Below, piece after piece: positions 34,101-45,814 of a stretch of DNA of 64,000 nt (its first letter is position 1; the number at the start of each line of letters is the position of its first letter). This stretch comes from Deltaproteobacteria bacterium (GTDB taxonomy: Bacteria; Bdellovibrionota; JACOXK01), in contig JACPKQ010000007.1 in assembly GCA_016186995.1 (NCBI GenBank), positions 111,196-175,195 of the forward strand. Reading direction: 5' to 3'. A program made the translations under genes and the position numbers. The notes below the pieces were generated by a model. The model saw only the letters and a program-made list of their open reading frames with translations. It made no database searches and was not told the DNA's origin.

Positions 34101-34169
34101 GATGACCTAGAGGTCTTTCAGTGCCCCTCCGCCCGGTGTGGATCCTCCCTGAAAAACCTCTAGGTCATC
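34101..34169. repeat. Intergenic palindrome with shared flanking boxes
   Basis: GATGACCTAGAGGTCTTTCA is matched inverted by the bases ending at 34169, with one mismatch over 21 bp and a 27-nt C/G-rich loop. It is preceded by ACTTAGGTTCTTGA (34089-34102) and followed by CACATAGACTCGA. Nearly the same boxes flank an unrelated stem at 44889-45092. Confidence 0.55.
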
Positions 34170-34270
34170 TTCACATAGACTCGAATGTAAATTCTCTCAT
34201 GGATACGTCAGATCCTCCCCTTCAAAACATACTAGGTAACTTTATGTGTCTCATAACGAAAATAGGTTAA

Positions 34271-34421
34271 AGAGATAGGGATAGTACTTACAGAGGGTCG
34301 TGTCGGAAGGTAATCTGGCTTGGTCCGCATGAATATGCGGCAGATTACCTGAGACGCGAGGCGCACTTTTTCGCAGGAAAAAAGTGACGCCGTACCCGAG
34401 GAAAGTACTATCCCTATCTCT
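34271..34421. repeat. 151-bp structured element, copy 1
   Basis: Ends are a perfect 19-bp inverted repeat, AGAGATAGGGATAGTACTT and its complement. Inside are GGTAATCTG/CAGATTACC enclosing CCGCAT-gaat-ATGCGG, a second hairpin GGCG-ACTTTTT/AAAAAGT-CGCC, and a GGGT/ACCC pairing. A 224-bp relative lies at 45591. It sits in the leader region of rpmF-fabD. Interpretation as RNA or MITE is open; the repeat itself is certain. Confidence 0.85.
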
Positions 34422-36739: not shown

Positions 36740-37986
36740 GTCGCGTGACAATCCAAAAAAGAGTTGTTGTAACAGGAATGGGTGCTGTTACACCACTTGG
36801 CTTAACTATTAAAGATACATGGAATGCTTTAATACAAGGCCATAGTGGTGTTTCTCTTATTTCTCGTTTTGATACACAAGATTTCCCCTGTAAGATAGCT
36901 GCTGAAATCAAAAATTATAACCCAGACCTCTACTTTACAAAACAAGAAGCAAGACGTCTTGAGCGGTTTTCTCAATTTGCAGTTGTTGCAGCCAGAGAAG
37001 CTTTACAAGATAGTGGACTCGAACTTTCAGAAGAAGAAAAACTGAAAACAGGTGTGATTGTAGGTGTGGGCATGGGGGGAGTTGAAGTTGTTGAAAATGC
37101 CGTACTTACTTTAAAAGAAAAGGGTGTGCGGCGTCTTTCACCTTTAGTGATTCCACTGATGATTCCTAATCTTGCTGCAGGGCATGTATCTATTCAACTG
37201 GGTTTAAAAGGGCCTAATGTGTGTACGACAACAGCGTGTGCCGCTGGAAGTCATGCTATAGGTGATGCTTTTAAACATATTCAGGATGGACGTGCTCTTA
37301 TGATGTTAGCTGGGGGTGCTGAATCTGTGATTTCACCCCTAGGAATTGGTGCTTTTTGTGCCTGCAAAGCGCTTTCAACAAGAAATGATGCACCCGAAAG
37401 AGCAAGCAGACCTTTTGATGAAGAGCGTGATGGTTTTGTAATGGGTGAAGGATCTGGCATTTTAGTTTTAGAAGAACTCGATCACGCCCAAAAAAGAAAA
37501 GCAAACATTTATGCTGAGATTGTAGGGTATGGACTTAACTCAGATGCCTATCATATTACAAATCCATCAGAAGGGGGCGAAGGAGCAGCGCGATGTATGG
37601 AAATGGCTCTTTCTGACGCACGTCTTTCAAAAGAAGATATTGGATATGTGAACGCACATGGTACTTCCACCAAAGCTGGAGATATCGCTGAAAGCTCGGC
37701 ACTTAAAACAGTTTTTAAAGATCAGGCCAAAAATCTTTGTGTTAGTTCCACAAAATCAATGACCGGCCATTTATTGGGAGCATCTGGTGGAGTCGAGGCA
37801 ATTTTTTCAGTACTGGCACTTAAAAATTCGAAGTTGCCCCCAACCATCAATCTTGAAAATCAAGATAAAGAATGCGATCTTAACTATATTCCTAATGAAA
37901 CTATCGAAAAGAATGTAAATTTTGTTCTTTCAAACTCGTTTGGTTTTGGTGGCACAAATGCCAGTTTAATTTTTAAAAAGATATGA
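36736..37986 (+). CDS. fabF: 3-oxoacyl-ACP synthase II
   Basis: 416 residues with Cys168 in [12 protein letters not shown], His in VNAHGTST (about 309) and His in [12 protein letters not shown] (about 346), the KAS II catalytic triad. Start is GTG at 36736, overlapping the acpP stop; a GTG three codons on is possible. It condenses malonyl-ACP with acyl-ACP. The KAS III gene fabH, normally upstream in this cluster, is absent, so initiation must be encoded elsewhere. Confidence 0.95.
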
Positions 37987-39665
37987 AAAATATTTACATT
38001 GCTTCCGATCATAGAGGTGTAGAGCTTAAGAAAGCCCTTCTCAAAAAATTTCCTGAGTTAGAGGATTTGGGAGCTCATAATGGAGAAGAACCTGTCGATT
38101 ACCCTGATTTCGCCCACAAGTTAGCTCATAAAATAGAACACAATAAAAAGGCTCGAGGCATCCTTCTCTGTCACACAGGTATTGGAATGTCCATTGCAGC
38201 TAATAAACTCAGAGGCATTCGTGCAGCATTAGTTACTAACAACACTATGGCGGAGATGAGTCGTAAGCATAATGATGCTAATGTTTTAGTTGTGCCAGGG
38301 GGTATTTTAAAACAAGAAGAAGTTTTTTCTATGGTTGAAAAATGGCTTCATACAGATTTTGAAGCAGGTCGCCATGAAAGAAGAGTTTTAAAAATAAAAT
38401 CTCTTGAATCTGGTTTAAGCGATATTTTTTCAACTGATCCAGAAATAGCCCAAGCTGTTTTTAATGAAATTAAACGCCAAGAATATAAACTTGAAATGAT
38501 TGCAAGTGAGAATTTTGTAAGCCGGGAAGTGATGTGGGCACAAGGTACAGTGCTTACAAATAAATATGCTGAAGGGTACCCTCATAAAAGATATTACGGT
38601 GGATGTGAAAACGTAGATGTTGTTGAAGATCTTGCCATTCAAAGAGTGAAGAAAATATTTGGAGCAGATGCTGCCAATGTACAACCCCACTCAGGTTCTC
38701 AGGCCAATATGGCTTCTTACATGGCTTTACTTGAAACAGGCGATACTATTTTGGGAATGGATCTTTCTCATGGTGGACATTTAACACATGGAAGCCCCGT
38801 TAATTTTTCTGGCAGGCTTTTTAAAGTTGTTTCTTATGGGGTGAGTCCACAAGATCAACGTATTGATTTTAATGATGTAAGGCACAAAGCTTTAGCTCAC
38901 AAACCAAAACTTATTATTGCAGGGGCGAGTGCTTATCCACGAACGATTGATTTTAAAAAATTTAGAGAAATTGCAGATGAAATAGGAGCTTTTCTTCTTG
39001 TTGATATGGCTCACATTGCTGGGCTTGTAGCGGCAGGCTTACACCCCAGTCCTGTGCCGCATTCTCACATTGTAACTTCTACAACACACAAAACACTTCG
39101 AGGTCCTCGAGGTGGTTTTATTCTTATGAAAGAAGAATTTGCTAAAAAAATTAATAGTCGTATCTTTCCGGGCATTCAGGGTGGCCCCCTCATGCATGTT
39201 ATTGCTGCAAAAGCTATTGCTTTTAAAGAGGCACTCACTCCAGAGTTTAAGGAATATCAAAAGCAGGTTATTAAGAATGCGCAAGCCTTGGCGGAAGGGC
39301 TTAAAACAAAAGGGTATAAGCTTGTTTCAGGCGGCACTGATAATCACCTTGTTTTGGTAGACCTCACCAACAAAAATATAACAGGAAAAGAGGCAGAAGA
39401 GCGACTAGACAAGGCGGGTATTACTGTTAATAAAAATACAATTCCTTTTGAAACCCAAAGTCCTTTTGTTACAAGCGGTATTCGGATTGGAGTTCCTGCC
39501 ATTACGACAAGGGGTATGAAAGAGGATGAAATCTTGAAAATAGTTGATTTTATTGATATAAGCCTCCGAAGCCCAGAGGTGGCTCCCAAAATTAAGGAAG
39601 AAGTTTTTGATCTTTGTAAACAATTTCCTCTGTATCCTCACCTTCTGGGTTGGTTGCCTAAGTAG
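37983..39665 (+). CDS. glyA: RpiB-GlyA fusion: ribose-5-phosphate isomerase B / serine hydroxymethyltransferase
   Basis: One 560-residue frame. Residues 1-140 are RpiB/LacAB: ASDHRG (7-12), [15 protein letters not shown] with catalytic Cys63 (family CGTGIG, here CHTGIG), and His96 in SRKHNDANV. Residues about 146-560 are full-length [31 protein letters not shown], and PLP-Lys370 in TTHKTLRG. A linker of only ~10 residues joins them with no stop or restart. It overlaps fabF by 4 bp. Both activities appear intact. It links pentose-phosphate and one-carbon metabolism in one polypeptide. Confidence 0.93.
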
Positions 39666-41284: not shown

Positions 41285-42051
41285 TGTTTTCTGGAATCAT
41301 TACATCTTTAGCCGTGATTGATGAAGTCATAAAACAATCTTCTTCTCTCACACTTCATTGTACATGGAAAAAACCACTTATAGGTGTAGAAGAAGGAGAA
41401 AGTTTAAGTCTGAACGGTATTTGTTTAACAGTCACAAAAGTCATGTCATTCCAGCCCGAAGCTCTTGGCATGACCCCTGTCATTCCCGCATCAGATGAAA
41501 GCACCAGCGGGAATCTAGATAGCGCAGCCACTTTTTTTGAAGTCGATGTTTCAATAGAAACTTTAGAGAAGACAACAGCCAAGAATTGGAAGAATGGGGA
41601 TCTCTTAAATGTTGAAAGAGCTCTTAAATATTCTGATGTGGTTGGAGGACATCTTGTCAGTGGCCATATTGATGGAGTTGGAAAAGTTTCTGAAATTTCT
41701 GTCATCCCAGCGAACCCCTCTGTCATTCCAGCGCAGGCTGGAATCCAGTCCCAATTCACAAAAATGACTCTTTCTCTTCCAAAAGCCTTTATGAAGCATA
41801 TTGTTTCGAAAGGCTCTCTTGCAGTGGATGGTGTGAGTCTCACTATCAATAAAGTTTTAGAAAAAGAAGTAGAACTTATGTTTGTTCCCTTTACGTTACA
41901 AAACACAAACTTGGGAACAAAACAAAAAGGCGATTTAGTAAACGTTGAGCTTGATATGATTGGAAAGTATGTTGCAAAACATCTGGAGGATATTGCTATA
42001 GTGCAGTCATTGCGAGGAGTCGAAGACGACGCGGCAATCCCATCGCGGTAG
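41284..42051 (+). CDS. ribE: Riboflavin synthase alpha chain with repeat-encoded insertions
   Basis: 255 residues against the usual ~200-215. The two lumazine-binding barrels are present (MFSGIITSLAVI, LNGICLTVTKV, FFEVDVSIETLEKTT, VERAL, GGHLVSGHIDGVG, VDGVSLTINKV). Three extra pieces come from palindromic repeats: residues 54-79 in barrel 1 (two family C units), 140-156 in barrel 2 (contains VIPAQAGIQ), and the last ~15 residues from a family B element. All are in frame and in loops or the tail. It dismutates two lumazines to riboflavin. Confidence 0.92.
   Translation: MFSGIITSLAVIDEVIKQSSSLTLHCTWKKPLIGVEEGESLSLNGICLTVTKVMSFQPEALGMTPVIPASDESTSGNLDSAATFFEVDVSIETLEKTTAKNWKNGDLLNVERALKYSDVVGGHLVSGHIDGVGKVSEISVIPANPSVIPAQAGIQSQFTKMTLSLPKAFMKHIVSKGSLAVDGVSLTINKVLEKEVELMFVPFTLQNTNLGTKQKGDLVNVELDMIGKYVAKHLEDIAIVQSLRGVEDDAAIPSR
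41445..41516 (+). repeat. Two family C units inside ribE, barrel 1
   Basis: First unit GTCATTCCAGCCCGAAGC...GGCATGAC, second unit GTCATTCCCGCATCAG...CAGCGGGAATC (41479-41515) with CCCGC/GCGGG arms. Together they encode about 25 residues absent from other riboflavin synthases. Confidence 0.75.
41701..41749 (+). repeat. Family C units inside ribE, barrel 2
   Basis: GTCATCCCAGCGAACCCC then GTCATTCCAGCGCAGGCTGG and AATCC. The second is the classic unit translated as VIPAQAGIQ, a peptide known from repeat read-through in many genomes. Confidence 0.8.
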
Positions 42052-45590: not shown

Positions 45591-45814
45591 AGAGATAGGG
45601 ATAGTTCTTATCGAGGGTCGTGTCGGAAGGTAATCTGGCTTGGTCTGCATAGTATATGCAGCAGATTACCTGTAGAGGCGAGGTCCAGGCTTTTATGAAT
45701 CATTTTTTAGTTTCACAAAAATGATTCATAAAAAAGATAATTCCCGGAGTTAAGCTGTTCTTTTCTAATAAAAAAAGTGATGCCGTGCCCGAGGGAAGTA
45801 CTATTCCTATCTCT
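45591..45814. repeat. 224-bp structured element, copy 2
   Basis: Same ends as the 34271 copy (AGAGATAGGGATAGTTCTT here, two changes in the stem), same GGTAATCTG/CAGATTACC stem, and inner hairpin CTGCAT/ATGCAG where copy 1 has CCGCAT/ATGCGG, a compensated change. The third hairpin is replaced by a longer segment containing a perfect 17-bp stem (TTTATGAATCATTTTT region, 45690-45736). It lies just before the ORF preceding ffh. Confidence 0.85.

Follow-up and report, generated by a model that had tools for sequence, protein, structure and literature searches.

A class-wide family of folded, mobile palindromic repeats in Bdellovibrionota, with a conserved core and a variable outer stem

Two places in the window, i.e., the whole stretch of 64,000 nucleotides analysed here, carry similar folded sequences, which we call W1 and W2 (Table 1). 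Are they copies of a structured RNA, or of a mobile element that happens to fold? The original prediction left both readings standing: it described a two-copy element placed before essential operons, either a structured RNA or a MITE-like element, and took the covariation between the copies as an argument for selection on structure.

The two copies and their fold

Both repeats were confirmed, with 19-bp ends, an inner stem and a compensated apical pair between W1 and W2, all as described before. The folding energy of W1 is -82.8 kcal/mol, compared with a mean of -41.2 for its shuffles (z = -9.8; none of the 200 shuffles is as low), and a second copy is nearly as stable relative to shuffles, both in its opposite strand and when folded as DNA. 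In W1, the helix P2 is flanked by a GAG/GAG internal loop above the outer stem P1. The second helix of the three-way junction holds a GGA/GA internal loop, a GGTAATCTG stem, the 7-nt open GCTTGGT and an apical CCGCAT/ATGCGG hairpin. The conserved string GGGTCGTGTCGGAAGG, previously thought to be unpaired, is in fact mostly paired (GGG with CCC, and CGTGTC with GACGCG); the GCTTGGT loop and GGA alone stay open. The claimed likeness between the copies also missed that W2 consists of the W1 fold plus an extra insert of about 80 bases, which bears a hairpin and lies in the last branch, i.e., the third hairpin.

Table 1. Positions of the two copies, their parts and adjacent modules in the window.
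Feature	Position	Strand	Covariation or folding evidence
Copy W1, full length, 151 nt	34271..34421	+	
P1 5' arm of W1, 19 nt	34271..34289	+	helix 1 of the covariation analysis
P1 3' arm of W1, 19 nt, complementary to 34271-34289	34403..34421	+	helix 1
P2 5' strand GGG of W1; partner CCC at 34395-34397	34295..34297	+	helix 2
Second helix of the W1 three-way junction, CGTGTC..GACGCG	34299..34358	+	helices 3-5 and folding
Third helix of W1: GGCGCACTTTTT hairpin, conserved CGCAGG loop, bulged A	34360..34391	+	helix 6
Copy W2, 224 nt	45591..45814	+	
Hairpin-bearing insert ATGAATCATTTTT..AAAAATGATTCAT in the third helix of W2, extent approximate	45680..45778	+	
Remnant arm of divergent subfamily C, TTCAAAACATACTAGGTAACTTTAT, immediately upstream of W1	34222..34246	+	
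Further palindromic module ATGACCTAGAGG..CCTCTAGGTCAT, part of the same nested array as W1	34107..34169	+	

Copies in the same genome and covariation of the family

The element is not restricted to two copies, since BLAST gives 38 matches in its own genome (G000; 93% complete). The 26 copies aligned from these matches are near-identical, a few being truncated or rearranged (one ends at a contig end, one is internally duplicated), and about 20 divergent copies occur besides them. They form two subfamilies of one arm sequence (AGAGATAGGG and AAAGATAGGG), and three of the 26, including W2, carry the long hairpin-bearing insert. The flanks of the copies are themselves repeats, each locus being a nested array of palindromic modules, and no constant target-site duplication was found among the own-genome copies so flanked. 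One boundary motif of the arrays, CCATTTYAAGAACTTAAG, occurs at about 72 places in this genome with at most 2 mismatches (2 in the controls). The same P1 frame also surrounds other non-coding interiors. The same genome holds a TPP riboswitch (72.7 bits; C13, positions 184-273 of L162).

In the consensus of the own-genome copies, the 19-bp P1 leads through an internal loop and the GGG/CCC pairing to a three-way junction with two branches: a long interrupted hairpin in which GCTTGGT stays open, and a GGCGCAC..GUGACGCC hairpin with the loop CGCAGG. The fold of the family as a whole has an outer stem P1 of 19-35 bp, a GAAG-type internal loop, a three-way junction and two hairpins. The core is conserved class-wide and keeps the motifs C..GGA/GA, GCGGGCAUGG or GGCUUGGU, GAGCGAG, CGCwGG and GAAG, whereas the P1 arms vary between sites and yet remain complementary.

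In 21 own-genome copies, 11 pairs show two-sided changes (3.7 in shuffles), and 39 cells hold compensated changes, a number that none of 500 shuffles reaches (9.1 in shuffles). Among 88 members of the family, 91.6% of the cells are paired, two-sided changes are found in 51 of 53 pairs, and 1565 cells are changed on both sides, compared with 455 in shuffles and no more than 390 in slid controls. The alignment of the 88 members was fitted to the covariance model, so these counts lean towards the model; despite this, the excess lies far beyond the slid controls. Covariation of this strength, and a variable outer stem around a conserved core, which is typical of aptamers, would be expected if the repeats were functional structured RNAs (riboswitches, leaders or small RNAs) with an outer stem that drifts under selected pairing. 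We return to this reading below, as the evidence on placement and on the outer stem bears on it.

Distribution across the class and the phylum

Copies in relatives were reached only by covariance models. Exact core patterns had no match in GTDB genomes or viral contigs, BLAST against 58 relatives had none beyond the own genome, and none of 14 loci of Ffh relatives (the best being 53% identical, from a Deltaproteobacteria MAG) holds a copy. A first covariance model, made from 21 copies, revealed four loci in three other members of the class, together with the divergent subfamilies of the own genome. A second model, for which the four divergent matches were used, found members in all eight class genomes (47, 11, 8, 20, 12, 8, 5 and 5 matches, counts that include a few partial or overlapping rows). 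The matches of a third model in 290 genomes of the phylum were confined to the same eight genomes, under stricter filters that may miss weak members. Rfam gave no match for the element at the gathering threshold or at E values up to 5, which bears out the original prediction in that no named class was recognised. The family was uncatalogued before and is confined to one bacterial class as far as tested. A covariance-model search had been proposed as the check, with two copies lacking relatives as the refuting outcome; it led instead to many copies, covarying stems and empty orthologous sites, in a family present throughout the class genomes.

The class genomes appear to be draft assemblies, with several copies at contig ends, which could point to an assembly artefact or to chance palindromes. 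This explanation can be dismissed with near certainty: the same fold is found in eight independent assemblies, orthologous sites are common to different genera, and covariation far above both shuffles and slid controls refutes it.

Sites between and within genes

The placement of the copies before essential operons is not a pattern. In the own genome, sites between tandem genes hold both orientations, and in the relatives, where both neighbours were called, the element runs against both neighbour genes at 8 sites, along both at 7, and lies between divergent genes at 6. A cis-regulatory RNA would be expected to lie upstream of a set of genes in one orientation throughout, and neither the own genome nor the relatives show this. 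Readings as a riboswitch or as an operon leader (fab, ffh) were rejected on this mixed orientation relative to genes. More broadly, mixed orientation also counts against a structured RNA, as does the class of the downstream gene, which is not conserved.

The own-genome copies are intergenic, none of those examined lying clearly in a gene. In the relatives, by contrast to what a functional RNA would suggest, copies lie in frame in the middle of coding regions, in either orientation, and some of the genes so occupied are essential. Going by our reading of the sequences, the genes concerned probably encode LpxB (G004), PabB (G005), PurL (G007) and a penicillin-binding protein, in which the copy precedes a PASTA-like tail (G002); in G006 and G007, in-frame copies lie in the linker between LpxB and LpxK. 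The strand and reading frame of the insert vary among these cases, and therefore no common peptide is selected.

lpxB and lpxK form a single long open frame in six relatives (G002-G007; L184, L195-L200) and are separate in the own genome; in the window, rpiB and glyA also look fused, in a single open frame of 560 aa (37983-39665). In the purL linker of G003 (L224), a different hairpin occurs twice, in tandem and in frame. Its loop GCGGCATTGCAATTCGAGC is conserved, and its long stems, though not the same in the two copies, are complementary, so that an unrelated element shows the same conserved-loop and variable-stem behaviour. A further palindrome, GTCATTGCGAGC..GCGATGACA, lies in frame in the purL linker of the own genome (L240), so repeats of several families have landed repeatedly at this linker. 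In pabB of G007 (L229), a third kind of hairpin occupies the linker where G005 and G002 carry the element, and its loop resembles the AAAGCGCAG..GCGAGCCAT module found beside many own-genome copies. Within the window, the riboflavin synthase gene ribE reads through a short, apparently in-frame palindromic repeat that encodes VIPANPSVIPAQAGIQ (about 41690-41745).

Occupied, inverted, decayed and empty orthologous sites

Between LpxB and LpxK, the linker is occupied by the element in G003, G005, G006 and G007 and free of it in G002 and G004. The boundaries match in the three congeners, the arms are 63-71% alike across these species, and the core points in one direction in G006 and in the opposite one in G005 and G007. 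In PurL, the copy is full in G007, full but inverted in G002 and G001, and reduced to decayed remnants in G004, G005 and G006; such decay also speaks against a functional RNA. PabB is occupied in G005 and G004 and, with the element inverted, in G002. Three further sites (murD-ftsW, priA-lptF and upstream of xerC) each hold a copy in one species and none in a congener. From these series, it follows that the element inserts, persists across genera, inverts and decays. In the purL copy of G001 and the pabB copy of G004, the cores resemble those of their own genomes and the arms are unrelated, so to judge from sequence these two may have arisen by separate insertion at one tolerant position.

The suggestion of a MITE-like element is supported by the many dispersed copies, the intergenic and in-frame insertions, and the orthologous sites that are empty within a genus. 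The element is mobile, RPE/MITE-like and non-coding; it is neither a riboswitch nor a leader of fab or ffh. The orthologous sites provide a natural series for the study of how repeats enter, flip within and leave proteins, and one in which the homogenisation of arms is directly testable.

Behaviour of the outer stem

Each of the 19 pairs of P1 shows all four Watson-Crick types; P1 is thus free in sequence, and complementarity alone is kept. In 13 pairs of copies from the same genome (G001, G002 and G004-G007), the cores are 85-94% identical and the arms, in gapped comparison, are no closer than shuffled arms, although within each copy they are near-perfect complements. In G003 and the own genome, the arms travel with the core; L261 and L273, from these genomes, have identical cores and several arm pairs that differ with both sides changed.

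These observations bear on the possibility of an ordinary MITE, derived by deletion from an insertion sequence and moved by a DDE transposase that binds the terminal inverted repeats. The 19-bp inverted repeats and the 26 near-identical own-genome copies that move with their arms are what one would expect of it. However, different subfamilies have unrelated terminal repeats, as do different copies in most other genomes, so there is no shared binding site for a transposase, and the conservation is in the core instead of the ends. Seven unpaired own-genome ends that we inspected enclose other non-coding palindromic modules, and no transposase was seen there in this incomplete assembly. We regard an ordinary MITE as improbable.

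Selection on RNA should favour G·U among the mismatches of a stem. Outside the own genome, P1 has 29 G·T and 23 A·C mismatches (p = 0.49), i.e., no G·U excess, which makes its covariation weak evidence for selection on RNA and fits template switching. The core has 64 G·T against 13 A·C, a wobble bias on the + strand that comes mostly from three columns (with these left out, 14 against 5, p = 0.06) and that would fit selection on RNA or on a single DNA strand. Covariation thus argues for selection on structure in part: the core may be selected as a folded strand, but the pairing of P1 is kept without a preference for G·U, its arms are unrelated between copies and the orientation of the core flips. 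A functional structured RNA could account for the bias in the core. Set against the behaviour of P1, the placement of the copies and the lack of a match in Rfam, we think it has little chance of being the explanation.

Template switching is known to homogenise the arms of inverted repeats and to invert their spacer (PMC8604942), and it can give rise to hairpin stems and preserve them (PMC8794818). We prefer it for P1 because both signatures, homogenised arms and inverted cores, are seen, and the pattern in the sequences fits this process. As A·C is as common as G·T in these stems, their covariation could have a DNA-level origin. If so, compensatory covariation, the usual proof of a selected RNA structure, can arise or persist through a process acting on DNA.

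A candidate for the mobilising enzyme

Taken together, we consider it probable that W1 and W2 are members of a mobile family of palindromic, non-coding repeats in which an enzyme acting in trans copies the folded strand and template switching maintains P1. After insertion, replication would stall at the hairpin, and a template switch would replace one arm with an inverted copy of its partner, leaving P1 matched and the core inverted. The element would need no host function, surviving where a spacer or a read-through peptide is tolerated.

Our best single guess for the enzyme, a tentative one, is a Y1/HUH transposase of the RAYT kind. Y1_Tnp genes (IS200-like/RAYT) are present in four of the eight class genomes (G001, G002, G004 and G006), one of them about 1 kb from a copy (L181). 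The only reverse transcriptase (RVT_1) among the class genomes is in G001. The own genome, the richest in copies, has no match to Y1_Tnp or RVT_1 in an assembly that is incomplete. One could go further and regard the repeats as REP/BIME-like and their mobilisation as the work of a RAYT (TnpA_REP) transposase recognising a folded single strand, with which the + strand bias of the core agrees. However, no Y1_Tnp gene was found in G003, G005, G007 or the own genome, most of those present elsewhere lack a flanking element (by the narrow model R1), and the element far exceeds REPs in size. We find this reading doubtful, somewhat more so than the enzyme on its own.

A more radical possibility is that the mobile unit is the folded core only, which would insert as a single strand and receive host-derived arms at each site by snap-back or template-switch synthesis. 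This would account for a universal core with a site-specific stem, and the same process would keep inverting the core. In its favour, copies whose cores reach 94% identity can have unrelated arms, and the two flanks of the core in lpxB of G004 together sum to the length of the native linker; a net insertion equal to the core fits this site, and roughly fits pabB and two lpxB-lpxK sites. Against it, arms travel with the core in the own genome and G003, and the empty and occupied sites at murD-ftsW, priA-lptF and upstream of xerC differ by more than the core. A net insertion equal to the core was given up as a general rule, since it fails for these three sites and for G003 and G007. Two candidate cores without arms (L287 and L288) were rejected, arms having been found beyond an insert in the third helix. 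Insertion of the core only is thus an unlikely account, although, if true, it would be an undescribed mode of insertion.

Comparison with known repeats

The closest parallel to the mobile repeat that we favour is found in Rickettsia palindromic elements (RPEs), which are dispersed between genes and in frame inside protein-coding genes (PMC10969869). Like them, the element is palindromic and foldable, with about 150 bp against a range of 100-150 bp, is inserted in frame within protein-coding genes (in the copies of relatives), and is apparently selfish and tolerated in linkers. The family differs in its bacteria and in having a conserved three-way-junction core, site-specific arms and core inversion. 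RPEs presumably share no sequence with it. The element works like an RPE, and is a new class-wide repeat family of RPE/MITE-like breadth with unusual structure and arm behaviour. With MITEs (CREE, ERIC, RUP, QMITE and others), it has in common that it is short and non-autonomous, with terminal inverted repeats and many dispersed copies. MITEs share end sequences with a parental IS, whereas the ends here differ between copies, and neither a parent nor a target-site duplication was found.

REPs and BIMEs are also palindromic and intergenic, possibly with an HUH enzyme acting on the folded single strand, and RAYT-like genes occur in half of the class. REPs are palindromes of 20-40 bp with GTAG/CGTC tags (PMC3733652); the multi-helix fold of 150 nt differs from them in size. 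A further difference is that no RAYT was found in the own genome. HEARO and IscB-associated RNAs are multi-copy and structured RNA-like, and some occur without the protein; the element differs from them in having no Rfam match at the thresholds given above. A large, well-supported structured family, present in every class genome examined, was thus missing from Rfam.

The BOX elements of Streptococcus pneumoniae are modular palindromic repeats in which modules are swapped or inserted. They differ, by description, in that BOX modules are in tandem and those seen here are nested. The hairpin module of the W2 insert is found in the other hairpin of the divergent copies L282-L284, and the module ATGAATCATTTTTTAGTTTCACAAAAATGATTCAT lies in different branches of different copies (L282-L284, L068, L069 and the W2 insert), as though hairpins enter the loops of other hairpins.
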